Source: Candidatus Zixiibacteriota bacterium (GTDB lineage Bacteria > Zixibacteria > MSB-5A5 > WJJR01). Taken from it: 64,000 nt of DNA. Shown piece by piece: positions 53,967 to 62,043 of the stretch. The notes under the pieces were generated by a model. The model was not told the DNA's origin. It did not search any database and saw only the letters and a program-made list of their open reading frames with translations. Position 1 is the stretch's first letter, and every line of letters starts with the position of its first letter. The stretch spans positions 1-64,000 of the forward strand of contig DASWIS010000020.1 of NCBI GenBank assembly GCA_036397555.1, given 5' to 3'. The position numbers were made by a program, and so were the translations under genes.

Positions 53967-54887
53967 TTAATGATCGGTTTTCATGTCCAATCCGCCACTG
54001 GAAATGGCCGCGTGTGTGCAGATGCGCAATGTTGCCCATGCCGCGGCCACGGCGCCGACCGTCCCATACACCAGCATGAGCATCACATCCGTATCCGACA
54101 GACCCTGCAGCGAGGCGATAAACGGCCGATCGACGATGATCCGGCGAATCCCTTCCAACCAATAGGTCCAGGGCAGCACGCGGCTGATCGAGTTGACCCA
54201 GCCCGGCAGGATATCGAACGAGAACACCGCACCACTCACAAGAAACAGCACGCCGCCCACACCGTCGGGAATGGAGAGACCATGAAACGCGGTCGTCAAG
54301 GTAATCGACGCCAACAGCACACCCAGCGCCAATGTCGCGATGCCGCCCAGAAACAAAAGCAGCAGCAGATGAGGTACTTCGGCGGGAGTGATCGACAAGG
54401 GCATGCCCATGATCAGAATGCCGAACGTGAGCGTTACGACGACCGCGGTCATTAATGCGATCACCTGGGATAATCCACGCGCTGCCATGTACCAACCGAA
54501 ACCGATCGGCGCCAGATAGACATAGCGTATCATTTGAAACCGTTCGCGGTCGAAGAACACGATCGTGCCCGTATTCTCCAACGACAGCAGCACCATGAAG
54601 AAAAACGCCTGCCCGATGAACAGTTGCGCCATCGACGGGTCATTGGCGGGCTTTCCGGTGACGACCGTGAACATCACGATCAATATCCCCGCGCCGAACA
54701 ACGGGCGCACCACCTGATAGATCATGAAGACAAACGGGTCGGTCCAGTTTGCCTCAATGGCCCAGCCCAGTTTGACCGCCGCCCAGATCGCCGCCCGGCG
54801 CGCCCGCAGTCTGGTCATGCGCTCGGGCAGCGCGACAGCGGTCGTTTGGCTTGACGCGATCATCTCGCTACGCTCCTTCCCTTCCAC
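53967..54887 (-). CDS. ABC-2 transporter permease
   Basis: 306 residues, six transmembrane helices in the ABC-2 arrangement, with the N-terminal DRERFQMIRYVYLAPIGFGWYM stretch typical of DrrB-like permeases. It is the third gene of the minus-strand operon (ATPase 55733-56779, permease 54918-55736, this one). With two different permeases and one ATPase the complex should export a lipophilic or peptide substrate. Spacing to the previous gene is 30 bp. Confidence 0.88.
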   Translation of the reverse strand: MEGKERSEMIASSQTTAVALPERMTRLRARRAAIWAAVKLGWAIEANWTDPFVFMIYQVVRPLFGAGILIVMFTVVTGKPANDPSMAQLFIGQAFFFMVLLSLENTGTIVFFDRERFQMIRYVYLAPIGFGWYMAARGLSQVIALMTAVVVTLTFGILIMGMPLSITPAEVPHLLLLLFLGGIATLALGVLLASITLTTAFHGLSIPDGVGGVLFLVSGAVFSFDILPGWVNSISRVLPWTYWLEGIRRIIVDRPFIASLQGLSDTDVMLMLVYGTVGAVAAAWATLRICTHAAISSGGLDMKTDH

Positions 54888-54917
54888 ACGCGACCAATCA
54901 CATGAATCCCGATGTCG

Positions 54918-55736
54918 TTACTGCCCCTTCAACGTCAGCCGCCCGGTGCGCTTGCCCAACTCCTCCATGTATCGCAGACCCCTGAGCGCGGCCCAGTTCA
55001 GCGCAAACGCCAAGACCACCAACAGCGCCAGTTCCGCGTTTACTGAGAGCAGCGGATTGACCGGCGACCCCGAGAAGATCAACTGACGGATCGCGTCGAG
55101 ACCCAGCGTCAATGGAATGACCGACGCCGCCGTTGCCACGGCGCCGCCCAGCGACCGCACCGGAAAGTAGAATCCGGTGACAAAGTAGATCGGCTCCTGA
55201 AACAGATTCACCGTGTGCCAGACTTGCCGTCCGAAGAGCATAAACAACGACGACGCCAGCATTCCCAAACCGTAGACGGCCGCCATGGTGACCATGAATA
55301 CGGCAATCAGGAGAAACCAATTGCTCACGGAAAACTGCACGCCAAACACCAGCGTTCCGATGGTCAGCACGGCAGCGGCGCGGGTAGCGGTCAACAGCAG
55401 CCCGCCGATGGCCATACCCAACAGGATGGACATGCGCGCCACCGGTGCGATCAGGTACAACTCGAGGTTGCCCATCTCCTTTTCCCAGTGAAACTGCGCC
55501 GCCATCGCCCACAAAATGTTCTGCCAGAAGGCCAGCATCGCACCGGAGACAACCACGAATCCGATGTAGGTTTCCGGTGCGCCCATTCCGCGATAGACCA
55601 GAGCAAAGCCGAACGCAGCCAACAGCGGAAACAGCACGTCGAATATCAGCCACGACGGTTCGCGGTTGGCGCCGACCACTCGCACGTAGGCGCGTCCCCA
55701 GATCGCGCGCAAATTGGTTTGAAGTCGTCCGCTCAT
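54918..55736 (-). CDS. ABC-2 transporter permease
   Basis: 272 residues from ATG 55736, which overlaps the ATPase stop (ATGA); the longer frame to 56027 lies inside the ATPase gene. Six transmembrane helices, with VFPLLAAFGFALVYRGM-like first helix and an EKEMGNLELYLIAPV stretch characteristic of ABC-2 permeases. Pairs with the permease at 53967-54887. Confidence 0.9.
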   Translation of the reverse strand: MSGRLQTNLRAIWGRAYVRVVGANREPSWLIFDVLFPLLAAFGFALVYRGMGAPETYIGFVVVSGAMLAFWQNILWAMAAQFHWEKEMGNLELYLIAPVARMSILLGMAIGGLLLTATRAAAVLTIGTLVFGVQFSVSNWFLLIAVFMVTMAAVYGLGMLASSLFMLFGRQVWHTVNLFQEPIYFVTGFYFPVRSLGGAVATAASVIPLTLGLDAIRQLIFSGSPVNPLLSVNAELALLVVLAFALNWAALRGLRYMEELGKRTGRLTLKGQ

Positions 55737-56779
55737 GAGGGCAGACCCTCCGACTCCTCGCTGCCGTTGGACAGTCCATGTCCGACGAGATTCAGGAACG
55801 CGTCCTCCAGCGTCGGCTCCAGTCGTGACACCACCAGCGATTGCACGCCGCGTTCGCGCAGGCGGTCCGTGACCGTCGTGATGCCGTGCTCGTCCTGCAG
55901 AATCACACGGATATGGGTGCGCCCGCGGTCGCCCCGATGTTCCAGCGCCACCGATCTGATCACCGGCAACCCGTCGAGCGGATTGTGGCCGTCGGAAAGC
56001 AGCGGTGTCTCGATGCGATACAGGCAATCGGGTGCGAAATCGCGCTTGAGATTGTCCGGTGTGTCGCAGGCCAGCACCCGGCCATGATCGATGATGGCGA
56101 TACGGTCGCAGAGCGCATCGGCTTCCGCCATGTAGTGCGTCGTCAGGATGATCGTGCGTTCGGCGTGATCGGCCATCCAGCCCTTCACGAATGTGCGCAC
56201 CTCGCGCGCCACGCCGACATCCAGCCCCAGCGTCGGTTCATCCAAAAACAGGATCTTGGGGTCGGTCACAAACCCCCGGATGATGTTCATCTTTTGGCGC
56301 ATCCCGGTCGACAGTTTGGAGATCTTCGTGTTGGCGTCGTCGCGCAAACCCAATGTGTCCATCATTCGGTCGGCGCGTTCGCGGACGACGCGTCCCGGGA
56401 CACCGTAGAATTGCGCGAACATCCAGATTGTCTCGCGCACGGTGAGGATCCCGAATCCGGAATGCTCGCCGCCGGAGACCATGTTAATCACGCGGCGCAC
56501 CCGTTCCGGGTCCTGACCGACGTCGACGCCGTCGACACAGGCGCGCCCCGAACTCGGCAAAAGCAGCGTGGAGAGAATCTTCAACAGCGTCGTCTTCCCC
56601 GCGCCGTTGGGGCCCAGAAGGCCGAACAGCTCGCCCCGATTGACGGTCAGGCTGACCCCATCGAGCGCGACCTTGTCGGCGGCGCCATTGCGTTCCGTGT
56701 TGCGGCGACGCCACAGTCGCTTGACGCGCGACCCCTTGAAAACGCGCCGCAAGTCCTCAGTCTCGATGGCCCAGCTCAT
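55733..56779 (-). CDS. ABC transporter ATP-binding protein (ABC-2 exporter type)
   Basis: 348 residues. Walker A GPNGAGKTT, signature KLSTGMRQKM, Walker B ILFLDEPTLGLD, H-loop TTHYM. The extended C-terminal domain (beyond residue 240) is typical of DrrA/CcmA-type export ATPases. First gene of a three-gene operon with two permeases. A 33-codon ORF and a hairpin terminator lie just upstream on the same strand (see 56807-56978). Confidence 0.95.
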   Translation of the reverse strand: MSWAIETEDLRRVFKGSRVKRLWRRRNTERNGAADKVALDGVSLTVNRGELFGLLGPNGAGKTTLLKILSTLLLPSSGRACVDGVDVGQDPERVRRVINMVSGGEHSGFGILTVRETIWMFAQFYGVPGRVVRERADRMMDTLGLRDDANTKISKLSTGMRQKMNIIRGFVTDPKILFLDEPTLGLDVGVAREVRTFVKGWMADHAERTIILTTHYMAEADALCDRIAIIDHGRVLACDTPDNLKRDFAPDCLYRIETPLLSDGHNPLDGLPVIRSVALEHRGDRGRTHIRVILQDEHGITTVTDRLRERGVQSLVVSRLEPTLEDAFLNLVGHGLSNGSEESEGLPS

Positions 56780-57288: not shown

Positions 57289-57954
57289 ATGCACATTCGC
57301 CGCATTCAGTACGCTCGCGTGCCCAAGATACGCATGCTCAACCACAACTTCCGCGACGACCGCAATCATCTGGTCGTGACGATGGACGTGGAGGGGTACG
57401 ATCCGCCGCAGACCAACGGCTTTCTCACGATCTATCGGGCGCTGGCGCGCCTGTTTCCGACGCTGTCGGATCACTCCTGTTGCGAAGAATGGGAGAACAC
57501 GCCGTTGTATCTGCAGGAAACCCAGGGCGTCTCGATGAAATGGGTCGGCGAAGTGGCCGATGTCGCCCATCTGGTGGAGCATGTGATCGTCGATCTGCAG
57601 TGCGCGGTCACGTCGATGTCGCGCTGCTCGGGCGTCACCTGCGGACACCGCGATCCCGAGAATCGCTTCGACCTGTTCGTCGAGTGCGACGACCCGTACG
57701 TGGGAGCGTTTTCAGCGCACTTCGCGACGTTTCTGGTCGCGTCGATGTTCGCCAAGCCGCGCCTGTCGCCGCATTACCGCGACATCGTGCAGGCGGCGCA
57801 CTGGGCGCACACGCAGCCCGGCCGGATCGACCGCGCGGAGTTGGCCGCGGCGCTCGCGATGTGTCCGATCCGCGCGCAGTGGGCGATCAGTGCGCTGGAA
57901 CGGTTCGAATTCTTCAACGGCAACAGCAGAGGTCACGATGAACTCCGTCGCTAA
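57289..57954 (+). CDS. Stand-alone protein resembling the N-terminal domain of cyanophycin synthetase
   Basis: 221 residues from ATG 57289. The start MHIRRIQYARVPKIR matches the start of cyanophycin synthetases (a MKILKIQxLRGPN-like pattern), then TLSDHSCC at 58-65 and HLVEH at 94-98 followed by VIVDLQ align with their EEHxC and HIVEH-xALELQ motifs, and the segment FDLFVECDDPYVG continues the alignment. HxxEH is a zinc-peptidase-like signature, and the N domain of some synthetases is reported to cleave the polymer. Here there is no ATP-grasp or Mur-ligase part. The last 60 residues are helical and unassigned. It overlaps the next small gene by 17 nt. Confidence 0.68.
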   Translation: MHIRRIQYARVPKIRMLNHNFRDDRNHLVVTMDVEGYDPPQTNGFLTIYRALARLFPTLSDHSCCEEWENTPLYLQETQGVSMKWVGEVADVAHLVEHVIVDLQCAVTSMSRCSGVTCGHRDPENRFDLFVECDDPYVGAFSAHFATFLVASMFAKPRLSPHYRDIVQAAHWAHTQPGRIDRAELAAALAMCPIRAQWAISALERFEFFNGNSRGHDELRR

Positions 57955-58129
57955 GAACACCGAGACATCACAGACGGTCGCCGAGCGGAAAGACCGTCAC
58001 GTCGTCGCGCGCATTCCGGCGGCCGACACGATGCCCGTGCCGATCATCCTCGGCGAACCGGACTACCGGCTCTTCCTGTGCTGCCGGGGACCGGAGACCG
58101 GCAAGAATGAGCAGAACGAGCAAAACTGA
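57938..58129 (+). CDS. Small hypothetical protein downstream of the cyanophycin-synthetase-N-like gene
   Basis: 63 residues from ATG 57938, overlapping the previous gene by 17 nt (GAGGTCACG upstream). The N-terminal half is polar; the middle reads VPIILGEPDYRLFLCCRG and contains two adjacent Cys; the tail is KNEQNEQN. No family recognised. Overlap with the preceding gene suggests translational coupling. It could be a small partner or a precursor peptide. Confidence 0.6.
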   Translation: MNSVAKNTETSQTVAERKDRHVVARIPAADTMPVPIILGEPDYRLFLCCRGPETGKNEQNEQN

Positions 58130-58202
58130 AAACCAGGCAGTCAGGTCATAACGGCTGTACCGTCGTACAAACACACAATCACCCAGAGGAGGAGGTGACA
58201 AC

Positions 58203-58433
58203 ATGGGCAAATTCACGTACAACGATTTCCGTTGGCTCGAGAAGACGCCGACCTCGCCGAAGCAGTTGCACGAGGGCGTCTGCAACCTGGTGTTCTCATC
58301 GGTGAACACGAAGTGCAAGGTCGAGGGCTGTAACGTGGAGACGGGCGAGTATCGCATCGTGCTGCAAGGCACGCTGGATATGGACAATAACCAGGCCATC
58401 TCGTTTGGTCACGGTTTCGGTCCCGGCTTCTAA
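58203..58433 (+). CDS. Small paralogous protein A (PTSP-CKVE-TGEYRIVLQGTLD family)
   Basis: 76 residues with an excellent ribosome site (GGAGGAGGTGAC) ahead of ATG 58203. Shares with the next protein EKxPTSP, CKVE and the strictly identical TGEYRIVLQGTLD core, including near-identical DNA in that stretch. Three Cys (residues 27, 38, 43), and a Gly/Phe-rich end (FGHGFGPGF). Predicted beta-rich. Not a known family to me. Confidence 0.72.
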   Translation: MGKFTYNDFRWLEKTPTSPKQLHEGVCNLVFSSVNTKCKVEGCNVETGEYRIVLQGTLDMDNNQAISFGHGFGPGF

Positions 58434-58516
58434 GAGTATCAGCACCGTCAGTGTCAACCAACACCACCACCGGTCTGTCGCGGTGACGGAGCAGGCCGGT
58501 CAAGGGAGGATTCACA

Positions 58517-58732
58517 ATGCCGTACAACTGGACAATCAAGGACGTCTACACGGTCGAGAAGAGCCCGACGTCCCCTTCGCGTCTGCAGTGGAAGATTTCC
58601 GAGATCATGTTCAACTCTTCGGCCTGCCGTTGCAAGGTCGAGTCGGTCAACCCGACGACGGGTGAGTATCGCATCGTGCTGCAGGGCACCCTGGACACCG
58701 TTGAAGGCAACATTCCCAATTTCAACGGCTAA
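58517..58732 (+). CDS. Small paralogous protein B (PTSP-CKVE-TGEYRIVLQGTLD family)
   Basis: 71 residues with GGGAGG 8 nt ahead of ATG 58517. Paralogue of the previous protein: same EKSPTSP, CKVE and TGEYRIVLQGTLD blocks at the same spacing, but a different N-terminus (MPYNWTIKDVYTV) and Asn/Phe-rich end (IPNFNG). Two Cys (about residues 37 and 39). The duplication followed by divergence at the ends suggests a two-component small-protein set. Confidence 0.72.
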   Translation: MPYNWTIKDVYTVEKSPTSPSRLQWKISEIMFNSSACRCKVESVNPTTGEYRIVLQGTLDTVEGNIPNFNG

Positions 58733-58757
58733 ACAAGCTCTGGATTTCCGATGTCAA

Positions 58758-58789
58758 CGGGGAGACGTCACGCAGGTGGGGTCTCCCCG
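58758..58789. promoter_or_regulatory. Perfect 9-bp inverted repeat between protein B and the basic protein
   Basis: CGGGGAGAC (58758-58766) and GTCTCCCCG (58781-58789) with a 14-nt loop. No T-run follows, so it is not a standard terminator; it could limit or stabilise the transcript reaching the basic-protein gene. Confidence 0.5.
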
Positions 58790-58828
58790 AATTTCACAAC
58801 AGCGAACGCCATGGACAGTGAGGATGTA

Positions 58829-59074
58829 ATGGCCACCAGACGCAAGAGTTCACGTACCGCCAAGTCCCGGACTCGTCGGACCGGACACAGTGCCGATTCG
58901 GCCAGTCACGCCTTTGGCGGCAACGGCACGACGCGCCGCGCGGTCCGTCGCGGCAGCAAGGGCAAGACGGCCCGTCGCCGCACACGCACCGTCGTGCGGC
59001 AAAACAAGCCGTTTGCCGTGAAGGTCAACGGCAAGAAGACGGCGGTCGCTTCGGCTTGGTTTTTCGGCGGCTGA
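58829..59074 (+). CDS. Small, highly basic protein
   Basis: 81 residues from ATG 58829 (an ATG at 58811 is also possible, adding six residues). Arg/Lys/Ser/Thr-rich from the start (ATRRKSSRTAKSRTRR, then RRAVRRGSKGKTARRRTRTVVRQ), ending NKPFAVKVNGKKTAVASAWFFGG. The basic part would bind nucleic acid or a polyanion, as histone-like or DNA-protecting tails do; the C-terminal hydrophobic end is unlike histones. No family recognised. Last gene before a terminator. Confidence 0.65.
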   Translation: MATRRKSSRTAKSRTRRTGHSADSASHAFGGNGTTRRAVRRGSKGKTARRRTRTVVRQNKPFAVKVNGKKTAVASAWFFGG

Positions 59075-59105: not shown

Positions 59106-59132
59106 CGCCACCCACAGGACGTGGGCGGTTTT
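59106..59132 (+). terminator. Terminator of the small-protein cluster
   Basis: CGCCACCCAC (59106-59115) and GTGGGCGG (59121-59128) form a GC-rich stem around a 5-nt loop, followed by TTTT (59129-59132). It separates the basic-protein gene from the molybdenum-hydroxylase accessory genes. Confidence 0.65.
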
Positions 59133-59278
59133 AACGTCCGAATGCCGATTCGGTCGTGTCGTGTCAGGTCTGCCCGCTCTCCGTATCGATTGCCTCTCTG
59201 CTCGCGGTTGTCACATACTGTTCTTTGCCGAGCATGTCGGGTTGCCGTACCGGCCCGGCCGGCATGGTGTGCTGAGTG

Positions 59279-60400
59279 ATGACAGTCGACCATCCGACAC
59301 AACACTGGCTGCCGCGCGCGTTGGCATCATTGCGTCGGGATGAGACGCTGCTGACGGCGCTCGTCATCGGCCCCGACGAACATCCGCGCCTGGGTGAACG
59401 GCTGATTGTCGAGGTTTGTCCGTCGCGCATCCCATACGGGCCGCTGTCTGATGCCGCCGCGGCGCTCGATGATTCGTTCGACAGGGTTATCGGCGAGGTC
59501 TCCGCGATGATTGTTGAAGCCCGATTGCCGGGTGATCACGCGCATGCGGCGCGTCTGCTGGTCAGCCGCATCGGGCCACACGACACCGCATGGATTTTCG
59601 GCGCCGGGCACATCGCGCAGGCATTGGCGCCGCTCCTGACGGGGCTGGGATTTCGCATCCATGTCTGCGACGATCGTGCCGAATTCGCGACCGCCGAGCG
59701 CTTTCCCGACGCGTCGCAACGGTTGGTCGATTCATTTCCCCGGATGGCTCGCGCCTGTGCGTCATCGCAGCGACCGTGGGTCGTTTTGGTCACGCGCGGG
59801 CATTTGCACGACGAGCAAATCTTGCGCGCACTGCGACACTCCGATTGCGCCTACCTGGGCATGATCGGCTCGAAACGGCGTGTGCGTTCGGTCATGGACC
59901 GCTTGAAGGGTGAAGGCGCGGCCGCGGAGTTCATGAATCGTATTCATGCTCCCATCGGTGTGCCGATCGGCGCCGATTCGCCGCAGGAAATCGCGGTCTC
60001 CATCGCCGCCGAGATGATCGCAGTCCGGCGCGGCGTTGACGCGGGGCAGCGGCTGTCTCCCGGCGCGACCGCCGACACCTCGGGAATCTCAGAGTTGTGG
60101 TCCCGTGTCGCCGAAGTGATCACAACGGGTCGGCCCGCCGTGTTGGCGACGATCGTCGAGCGCAAGGGCTCGACCCCACGCGGGCTGGGCGCGCAGATGG
60201 CGGTATTCGCGGACGGCGCCATCGCCGGCACGATCGGCGGCGGTTGCGGAGAGGAAGAGGTGCGGACAGCCGCCCGTCGGTTGCTCGTTGCCGATCAACC
60301 TGCGTCACTCCTGACCATCGATTTGACCGGCGATCCCCGTGCCGAAAGCGCCGACATCTGCGGCGGACGCTACGCGGTGGTGCTGGAACGACTTCCATAG
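59279..60400 (+). CDS. XdhC/CoxI-family molybdenum hydroxylase maturation protein
   Basis: 373 residues from ATG 59279 (GTG 59276 also possible). An XdhC_C-type Rossmann part comes first (IFGAGHIAQALAPLL, CDDRAEFA, then LGMIGSKRRVRSV and IGADSPQEIAVSIAAE), and a CoxI-type part comes second (residues about 240-373: VLATIVERKGSTPRGLGAQM, GTIGGGCGE, DICGGRYAVVLE). That order is opposite to the usual XdhC. Such proteins insert sulfurated molybdenum cofactor into xanthine-dehydrogenase-like enzymes. It starts a three-gene set. Confidence 0.92.
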   Translation: MTVDHPTQHWLPRALASLRRDETLLTALVIGPDEHPRLGERLIVEVCPSRIPYGPLSDAAAALDDSFDRVIGEVSAMIVEARLPGDHAHAARLLVSRIGPHDTAWIFGAGHIAQALAPLLTGLGFRIHVCDDRAEFATAERFPDASQRLVDSFPRMARACASSQRPWVVLVTRGHLHDEQILRALRHSDCAYLGMIGSKRRVRSVMDRLKGEGAAAEFMNRIHAPIGVPIGADSPQEIAVSIAAEMIAVRRGVDAGQRLSPGATADTSGISELWSRVAEVITTGRPAVLATIVERKGSTPRGLGAQMAVFADGAIAGTIGGGCGEEEVRTAARRLLVADQPASLLTIDLTGDPRAESADICGGRYAVVLERLP

Positions 60401-60534
60401 AAACTTCGTTGATTTATTGTCATCTCCCACAGGGCGGGCCTGCCGTTTTCGATTGCGTCCGCCGCGCCCAGCGGACACATTCCAGCTAACAGAAGGCTTT
60501 GTCCCTTGGTCCTCACCACCGGGGGAGAGGGTTG

Positions 60535-61164
60535 ATGATTTCCGGTCTGATTTGCGCGGCCGGGCTCGGCAAACGGCTCGGCGCACCCAAACCATTACTG
60601 CCGCACGAACACGCGACGATGCTCCAGATCGTCTTGGATCGCTATCGTCCAGCCGATCTGAAGGAGATTATCGTTGTGTTGGGTCATGATGCACGCCGTA
60701 TCGTCGGTGAAATTCGCCTCGATGGGCTGAAAGTGGTTATTAACAGCCGTCCGAGCCAGGGATTGTCCAGTTCGATTCAGCGGGGACTCGCCTATCTCTC
60801 GCCGGGCGTTCGCGGCGTGATGATCGGAATGGGCGATATGCCGCTGGTGGCGACCGCGACCATCAATACGCTGATCGACGAGTTTCGAACGGCGCAAAAG
60901 GGAATCGTCGCGCCGAAGTACAAGAAACAACGCGGTCACCCGGTGATCATCGATTTGAAGTATCTGGATGAACTGTTGGCGCTGCGCGGCGATGTCGGCG
61001 CCAAATCGATCCTGGCGGCGCACGACGATGATGTGCATGATGTCCCCATCGACTCCGATGAAGTCGTCACCGACGTCGATACATCAGAGCAATGGGAGCA
61101 CGTGCGCATCCGTCTGCCGCTGCCGCCCCCGGTCGAAGCCGACGAGATCTCATCGGATGAGTAG
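60535..61164 (+). CDS. Molybdenum cofactor cytidylyltransferase-like NTP transferase (MocA/MobA-like)
   Basis: 209 residues from ATG 60535 (GGGGGAGAGGG ribosome site); the longer frame to 60499 is not needed. Nucleotidyltransferase start GLICAAGLGKRLGAPKPLL, then the metal-binding GMGDMPLV and KYKKQRGHPVIID typical of MocA. It would attach CMP to molybdopterin for xanthine-dehydrogenase-family enzymes, as part of the same maturation set as XdhC and the YqeB-like protein. Confidence 0.92.
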   Translation: MISGLICAAGLGKRLGAPKPLLPHEHATMLQIVLDRYRPADLKEIIVVLGHDARRIVGEIRLDGLKVVINSRPSQGLSSSIQRGLAYLSPGVRGVMIGMGDMPLVATATINTLIDEFRTAQKGIVAPKYKKQRGHPVIIDLKYLDELLALRGDVGAKSILAAHDDDVHDVPIDSDEVVTDVDTSEQWEHVRIRLPLPPPVEADEISSDE

Positions 61165-61215
61165 AGGCCGATCGAACGACGCCCCCTCGACACACTCCAT
61201 CCCCCGTTCCGAATT

Positions 61216-62043
61216 ATGAACACGTTTCGCCAAAGGTCCTCTATTGAGGATCGCGCCCTCATCCGTGGCGGCGGCGAGATGGGATCGGGCGTCGCGTGGC
61301 GCCTGCACCGTTGCGGTTTCGATGTCTTAATCACCGAAATCGAGCACCCCACCGCGATACGCCGCTGGGTCTGCTTCGCCGAGGCGGTGTATGACGGCCA
61401 TCAGAAGATCGAAGGCGTCACCGCCGTCCGAGTTCGCACGATGTCGGAGTGTCAGGCAGCTTGGGAGCGCAACGAAATCGCGGTGATGGTCTCGCCGGAC
61501 CCGTCACGTCTGCGGGAATTCAAAGCCGACGTTCTCATCGACGCGGTCCTGGCCAAGCGCAACACCGGCGTCGAAATCGGCATGGCCCGGCGCGTGATCG
61601 GCTTGGGGCCGGGATTCGTCGCCGGAGACGATGTCGATTGCGTGATCGAGACCAACCGCGGCCCAAACCTGGGGCGGGTCATCTGGCAGGGGCAGGCCGA
61701 ACGCAACACCGGCGTTCCCGGTGAACTGGCCGGCGAGACGATCAAACGGGTCCTGCGCGCCCCCGGAACGGGCGTGATGGAAACGATCCTGTCAATTGGT
61801 GATGAAGTCAACGTCGGCGATCTGGTCGCCCGCATCGGCGACGTTGAGGTCTGCGCCAAACTCGACGGTATCGTGCGCGGACTGATGCGTTCCGGGCTGC
61901 CGGTCACTCCCGGCGTCAAGATCGGCGACATCGACCCGCGCAACAATCTGTCCCTCTGCGGCCGCATCTCCGATAAGGCGCTCGCCATCGGCGGTGGCGT
62001 GCTGGAGGCGATCTTTTCCAAACCTCCGTCAACTGATTCATAG
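61216..62043 (+). CDS. YqeB-like selenium-dependent molybdenum hydroxylase system protein
   Basis: 275 residues; start ATG 61216. Glycine-rich nucleotide-binding start (LIRGGGEMGSGVAWRLHRCGF), then VIGLGPGFVAGDDVDCVIETNRGPNLGRVIW and AERNTGVPGELAGE, all typical of the YqeB/EF2563 family associated with selenium-dependent molybdenum hydroxylases. Its precise role is unknown; it is usually found with SelD, XdhC and MocA. Here no selD or hydroxylase gene lies in the window. Confidence 0.88.
   Translation: MNTFRQRSSIEDRALIRGGGEMGSGVAWRLHRCGFDVLITEIEHPTAIRRWVCFAEAVYDGHQKIEGVTAVRVRTMSECQAAWERNEIAVMVSPDPSRLREFKADVLIDAVLAKRNTGVEIGMARRVIGLGPGFVAGDDVDCVIETNRGPNLGRVIWQGQAERNTGVPGELAGETIKRVLRAPGTGVMETILSIGDEVNVGDLVARIGDVEVCAKLDGIVRGLMRSGLPVTPGVKIGDIDPRNNLSLCGRISDKALAIGGGVLEAIFSKPPSTDS

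Follow-up and report, generated by a model that had tools for sequence, protein, structure and literature searches.

The window, by which we mean the whole stretch of 64,000 nucleotides that was analysed, carries five open reading frames between positions 57289 and 59074, all on the forward strand, as are all the features of these genes given below. All five are present in the ORF list where the initial annotation had placed them. P1 (57289-57954) encodes a 221 aa protein that resembles a stand-alone N-terminal domain of cyanophycin synthetase, with a C-terminal helix-turn-helix-like extension, and is a predicted zinc peptidase. P2 (57938-58129; 63 aa) overlaps the end of P1 by 17 nt and is followed by P3 (58203-58433; 76 aa), by P4, a paralogue of P3 (58517-58732; 71 aa), and by P5 (58829-59074), a very basic protein of 81 aa counted from its best start. 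For the window's P2 to P5, no family in Pfam, NCBIfam, PADLOC or PHROGs was matched above threshold. The ribosome sites, which had been described as good, are strong at P3 and weak at P1. The Shine-Dalgarno sequence of P3 (AGAGGAGGAGGTGAC, 58185-58199) has a 9-base match to TAAGGAGGTGATC, compared with at most 6 matched bases in the 34 window genes of at least 200 aa and 3 at P1, and the match at P3 averages 8.0 bases over 15 loci. This very strong site suggests that P3 is highly expressed. The final terminator that had been proposed turned out to be only a weak bulged hairpin with TTTT (59108-59132), read directly from the sequence and absent from the output of a terminator scan, which found no more terminators in the region than in shuffled sequence. 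No sigma-70 promoter-like sites were found in the region by a scan, and no structured RNA was matched in Rfam.

P1 matches the Pfam family PF18921 (Cyanophycin synthase-like N-terminal domain) at 7.7e-8 and 32.8 bits (curated cut-off 27), and this family is matched by all 15 P1 relatives too. P1 covers only positions 12-138 of the 862 positions of the cyanophycin synthetase model TIGR02068 (31.9 against a cut-off of 850) and lacks the ATP-grasp and ligase portions, which bears out its earlier description as a stand-alone protein. A search with the P1 profile against solved structures found CphA1 at 7.3e-6, and comparison of the P1 model with CphA1 N domains gave VIA Z values of 13.0-13.9, against at most 7.1 for unrelated rows. 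The best Foldseek match of the P1 model was 8.9e-4. The structure models were built from alignments of window, L024 and L025 proteins only, and the P1 and P3 models are weak (mean pLDDT 57-58; 57 for P1) because the alignments behind them are shallow.

The CphA1 N domain is a cryptic primer-generating metallopeptidase (PMC9262961; PDB 7TXU/7TXV, 7LG5), and this hidden peptidase with its unusual Cys-His-His zinc site was shown only recently (PMC9262961). Its metal is ligated by C59, H79 and H83, and E82 serves as the general base; when H57, C59, H79 or E82 is mutated, primer-independent activity is lowered or abolished (PMC9262961). The corresponding residues of P1 (H62, C64, H94, E97 and H98) are invariant across 15 diverse aligned P1 proteins. 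H62 and C64 (H62-x-C64, 57472-57480) align with SuCphA1 H57 and C59, while H94, E97 and H98, which form the HxxEH motif (H94-L-V-E97-H98, 57568-57582), align with H79, E82 and H83 (Synechocystis CphA1 alignment). P1 and the CphA1 N domain have in common the fold, the HxC...HxxEH site, an acidic residue four positions past the last His (aspartate 102 in P1, in the place of CphA1 E87) and equivalents of Thr101 and Pro107, but they differ in spacing, which is C-x19-HxxEH in CphA1 and C-x29-HxxEH in P1. Judged by alignment, P1 retains the published zinc site of the CphA1 N domain exactly, with Cys64 and the two His of HxxEH as predicted metal ligands, His62 in the second shell and Glu97 as the predicted general base. 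The assignment rests on alignment rather than on model geometry because the confidence of the model is low, too low for it to show the site. The initial annotation had named a zinc site formed by two His and one acid as support for its reading. A zinc site with invariant residues is found by alignment, but its predicted triad is Cys-His-His, as in the CphA1 N domain. Downstream of HxxEH there is a near-invariant E132, and the CphA1 alignment points to Cys64 as the third ligand. The M16 inverzincins (pitrilysin and insulin-degrading enzyme) share HxxEH with P1; however, P1 is far smaller, and the third ligand indicated for it by alignment is a Cys that precedes the motif, whereas that of M16 is a downstream acid.

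Where CphA1 has its ATP-grasp and Mur-ligase domains, P1 has a helix-turn-helix-like part in its last ~60 residues. The model places three helices here at low confidence (residues 161-172, 182-190 and 194-205; 57769-57903 for residues 161-205). One relative matches HTH_24 (1.3e-5), and there were weak SarA/MJ223 matches (0.08-0.19).

P2 adjoins the 3' end of P1 in nearly every locus, and its sequence is not conserved beyond one motif. This motif is YRLFLCC in the window (58064-58084) and Y-[RKA]-x-x-x-x-C in relatives. Y-x(5)-C is always there, typically as YRxxLNC (for example YRIVLNC), and positional P2 equivalents with the same motif were found at 20 loci. P2 had been described as a 63-residue Cys-pair protein; the length stands, but the pair is not general, as only the second Cys is conserved. 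P3 and P4 share TGEYRIVLQGTLD and are 44% identical, consistent with their earlier description as paralogues. Across an alignment (A1) of 32 P3/P4 family sequences, S-P, N, T-G-E-Y-R, L and G are invariant, and within the motif GEYRIVLQG (58344-58370 in P3 and 58661-58687 in P4) the residues G, E, Y, R, L and the final G are invariant. The P3 model consists of two helices and a beta-hairpin, the second strand of which is the EYRIVL stretch (pLDDT 77 in the best block, low confidence elsewhere). The ~60 conserved residues of P3/P4 are followed by a short variable tail, which is aromatic and Gly-rich in P3 and in several relatives. Loci contain two to four P3-type copies, and P4-type sequence is conserved among f1 relatives. 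The P2 motif resembles the Y-R-x-x-L-x-G of P3/P4 (within TGEYRIVLQG), with Gly replacing Cys. We consider this resemblance to be the main mechanistic clue, as it suggests that P2 and P3/P4 may share a binding site on P1.

In a sequence search for P3/P4 relatives of solved structure, the only matches were one to a designed repeat protein and a second, marginal one, and both were judged spurious. Likewise, a likeness to the NCBIfam lipoprotein family LIC_10463 (best 0.002, 12 of 32 members) covers the C-terminal half only, lies far below the cut-off and was put down to chance or generic similarity. Outside the module, isolated P3/P4-type genes were seen at L078 (5365-5937), L079 (4992-5330) and L080 (5166-5438). 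Within ~1-2 kb of such genes lies what by eye is an HtrA/DegP-like gene for a serine protease, not only in G003/G005 but also in G023, a genome of another family.

P5 is very basic, as had been claimed, with 23 K+R against 1 D+E in the window. It ends in the motif SAWFFGG (59051-59071), which has the form [ST]-x-[WF]-x-F-[GE] in relatives. The front of P5 is variable: it is Lys/Arg-rich in most members, HC2-like in G007 and G008, and of the HHH_5 type in G267 (8.4e-10). The G007 and G008 relatives match PF07382 (HC2) at 8.4e-6, short of the curated cut-off, and at 2.7e-28, a likeness to the HC2/histone H1-like bacterial nucleoproteins, although these HC2-like members lack the SxWxFG end. The P5 of the window has no Pfam match. 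On the strength of these Lys/Arg-rich, HC2-like or HHH_5 fronts, P5 probably binds DNA. The P5 relatives of family f6 (L032 and L033) are not basic, and P5 was not found in families f4, f5 and f14. G008 has lost P1-P3 and keeps a diverged P4 together with a 339-aa HC2-like P5 with TTRKP repeats (L081, 5696-7064); by eye, this remnant adjoins a MurQ-like gene, as in G007.

The P2 pattern Y...[LFP].C was present in 14 of the 14 P2 sequences tested (0.07 on average in shuffles) and the P5 pattern in 14 of the 14 P5 sequences tested (0.03 on average). Both patterns were written after the data had been inspected, and they served to locate some of the P2 and P5 members (among them the P5 of L027, L082-L085 and L094), most others having been located by position first. 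The excess over shuffled sequence is so large that motif-guided finding does not affect the existence of the motifs; it does affect their exact pattern.

P1 relatives were found in 23 of 58 close genomes and in 26 of 132 genomes from the Zixibacteria-like phylum, three of the 26 being truncated. P3/P4-type proteins were found in 21 of the 132 (E down to 1e-36), well above what chance would give, so the small ORFs are conserved in relatives, contrary to the outcome that the initial annotation had named as fatal to its reading. P1 and P3/P4 occur together in 19 of the 132 genomes (Fisher 3e-15, a p-value that ignores shared ancestry) and are adjacent in 18 of them. The exception is G023, a complete genome on a single contig, where P1 has no P2 or P3 beside it. 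In family f14, P1 and P2 are kept and P3/P4 are absent, making P1 with P2 the smallest set seen. Among ~250 genomes searched from other phyla, one genome (G267, from a phylum represented by four genomes) has all five parts. Their order there is P5, P2, P3, P4, P1, so that the expected conservation in distant genomes holds for the unit but not for the gene order. The tails of the P3/P4 proteins of G267 (L094, 6430-6905) finish with KWEE and KWDW and so differ from the aromatic-Gly tails seen in the family of the window. Values of dN/dS for P1, P3 and P4 against four relatives are roughly 0.1-0.4, indicating purifying selection. No flanking gene is common to most families, and distant lineages share the module genes only. 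Neighbours are shared locally (f5 and f6 alone have a similar gene upstream, and f1 alone has XdhC-MocA-YqeB) and are therefore not part of the module. Because linkage is conserved, flanks are unshared and dN/dS is purifying, the five genes are, by these comparative criteria, a real, selected and self-contained module.

Three f5 genomes (G011, G037 and G026; L022, L023 and L045) have truncated P1 relatives and no P3/P4 match, and the P1 relative of G026 lacks the N-terminal part bearing the Cys ligand. In these genomes the enzyme has decayed and its partners have been lost. By eye, a RarA/MgsA-like AAA ATPase gene lies near P1 on the opposite strand in f5 and f6 (L031-L034 and L045). A phage or plasmid origin was also considered and rejected: one scan of viral contigs found no P3/P4 relative, and plasmid searches found no P1 match and one weak partial P3 match.

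We propose that all five genes work together as a single functional module with the small zinc peptidase P1 at its core, with P2 as its inhibitor, P3 and P4 as substrates or scaffold, and P5 as a DNA tether, a reading to which we assign a probability of about 0.35. P1 would be an endopeptidase for which cyanophycin is no longer the target. P2 would be a dedicated regulator of P1, probably an inhibitor, which inserts its YRxxLxC strand into the cleft of P1 so that the Cys sits on the zinc, akin to a trans-acting cysteine-switch propeptide; this role is suggested by motif resemblance only. P3 and P4, made in excess, would present the same strand with Gly for Cys and act as substrates or as a displacing scaffold. 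The basic, H1-like or HhH part of P5 would anchor the complex to DNA, with SxWxFG as the docking element, and the output may be regulated proteolysis at or close to DNA, or P1-licensed assembly of a P3/P4 structure. In its most specific form, which we put forward tentatively and hold to be a little less probable, a free CphA1-N-type zinc peptidase is kept inactive by a small Cys-bearing mimic of its partner strand and acts on DNA-anchored partner assemblies. We count in favour of the P1-centred mechanism the linkage, the invariant zinc site, the CphA1 fold, the minimal set of P1 and P2, the motif statistics, the HHH_5 and HC2 matches of P5 relatives, the P3 ribosome site and the lack of cyanophycin genes in carriers (see below). 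Against it we count the low-confidence models, the lone P1 of G023, the non-basic P5 of f6, the missing P5 of f4, f5 and f14, and the definition of the motifs after the data had been seen. The initial annotation had seen in the locus the shape of a peptide-processing, secretion or protective-protein system. An enzyme-like part with small partners is indeed conserved as a unit and peptide processing is possible, but neither a protective role nor secretion is supported: no exporter is conserved beside the module, and by eye the small proteins have no evident secretion signal. Absent from that annotation were the motif common to P2 and P3/P4, the SxWxFG end and probable nucleic-acid-binding character of P5, the helix-turn-helix-like part of P1 and the standing of the P3 ribosome site as by far the strongest.

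Small zinc peptidases with a helix-turn-helix-like part, encoded beside small proteins, are known from IrrE/ImmA-type metallopeptidase-regulator pairs, which have an HExxH motif. By analogy with this layout, P1 could be a zinc-dependent, DNA-binding peptidase that senses stress by cleaving its small partners and thereby switches expression, with P5 as a nucleoid-type effector. The helix-turn-helix-like C-terminal part of P1 and the DNA-binding type of P5 fit such a regulator, which we nevertheless consider unlikely. P1 has HxxEH with a Cys and no HExxH, its Pfam scan matched no IrrE/ImmA-type family, its helix-turn-helix-like part is not recognisable in the relatives of family f4, P3/P4 have no recognisable repressor domain, and no conserved operator is visible upstream of P1 in five relatives compared. 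It is also rather improbable that P3/P4, with P2 and P5, use the shared EYRIVLQG strand to build a particle or filament in the cytoplasm, with P1 as maturation protease, as in self-assembling shells that have a protease of their own. The multiple P3-type copies (two to four at a locus), the very strong P3 ribosome site and the aromatic and Gly-rich tails would suit a structural protein, but P3/P4 have no sequence similarity to a shell or filament protein and f14 retains P1 without them.

The division of P3/P4 into a conserved stretch and a short variable tail would also be expected of RiPP-like precursors with a conserved leader and a variable core, for which P1 would be the leader peptidase. 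This division fits a folded domain equally well, the neighbourhood of the module has no conserved modifying enzyme, RRE protein or exporter, no NCBIfam RiPP leader family is matched, the tails have no conserved core chemistry, and P2 and P5 would be left unexplained, so we regard a RiPP-like pathway as quite improbable. The homology of the P1 domain would, on its own, allow P1 to be a free primer-making domain that trims cyanophycin, with the small proteins as primers or granule proteins. However, cyanophycin synthetase (TIGR02068) was found above cut-off in none of the 23 carrier genomes, in which the matches to this model are only 489-526 aa frames over profile positions 462-850, interpreted as Mur ligases, and cyanophycinase (TIGR02069) was found in none of the 23. 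In addition, the cyanophycin-contacting residues Arg70 and Glu90 of CphA1 are replaced in P1 by W85 and C105, positions that vary among relatives. These results contradict the earlier suggestion of cyanophycin as a substrate, and a cyanophycin system was rejected as strongly disfavoured and very improbable.

The module thus differs from CphA1 in its partner genes, in the loss of the two contacts and in genomes without cyanophycin genes, and from IrrE/ImmA pairs in its HxxEH motif and in partners without an HTH repressor. PADLOC anti-phage defence models matched none of P1-P5, and a known defence system was set aside. The earlier statement that no described system matches is upheld, none having been found in PADLOC, PHROGs, Pfam (PF18921 and the HC2 and HhH domains aside) or the open-licence papers searched. 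What is known of P1, by homology, is the CphA1 N domain, and what is new is its stand-alone form; the five-part set appears to be an undescribed protease-centred system, with no described kind found. Here, the catalytic site of the CphA1 N domain is encoded by a gene of its own, accompanied by four small partner genes, and the genomes concerned lack cyanophycin. If the proposed reading is correct, Cys-His-His zinc chemistry belongs to a wider peptidase family, and the module supplies candidates for the substrate, inhibitor and anchor of a P1-type peptidase. P2 and P3/P4 are protein families with no Pfam or NCBIfam model passing cut-off and no PHROGs or PADLOC match.

On the upstream side of the module in the window, a divergent ABC-2 type exporter operon lies on the reverse strand (53967-56779), with a DrrA-like ATPase and two DrrB-like permeases; elsewhere it is not conserved beside the module. 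Directly downstream, on the forward strand (59276-62043), lies a molybdenum-hydroxylase maturation trio comprising an XdhC-family protein (2.4e-82), a MocA-like cytidylyltransferase (2.3e-46) and YqeB (5.7e-102, above cut-off). By eye, the module is also succeeded by this trio in G005 (L085) and by an XdhC-like gene in G006 (L027).
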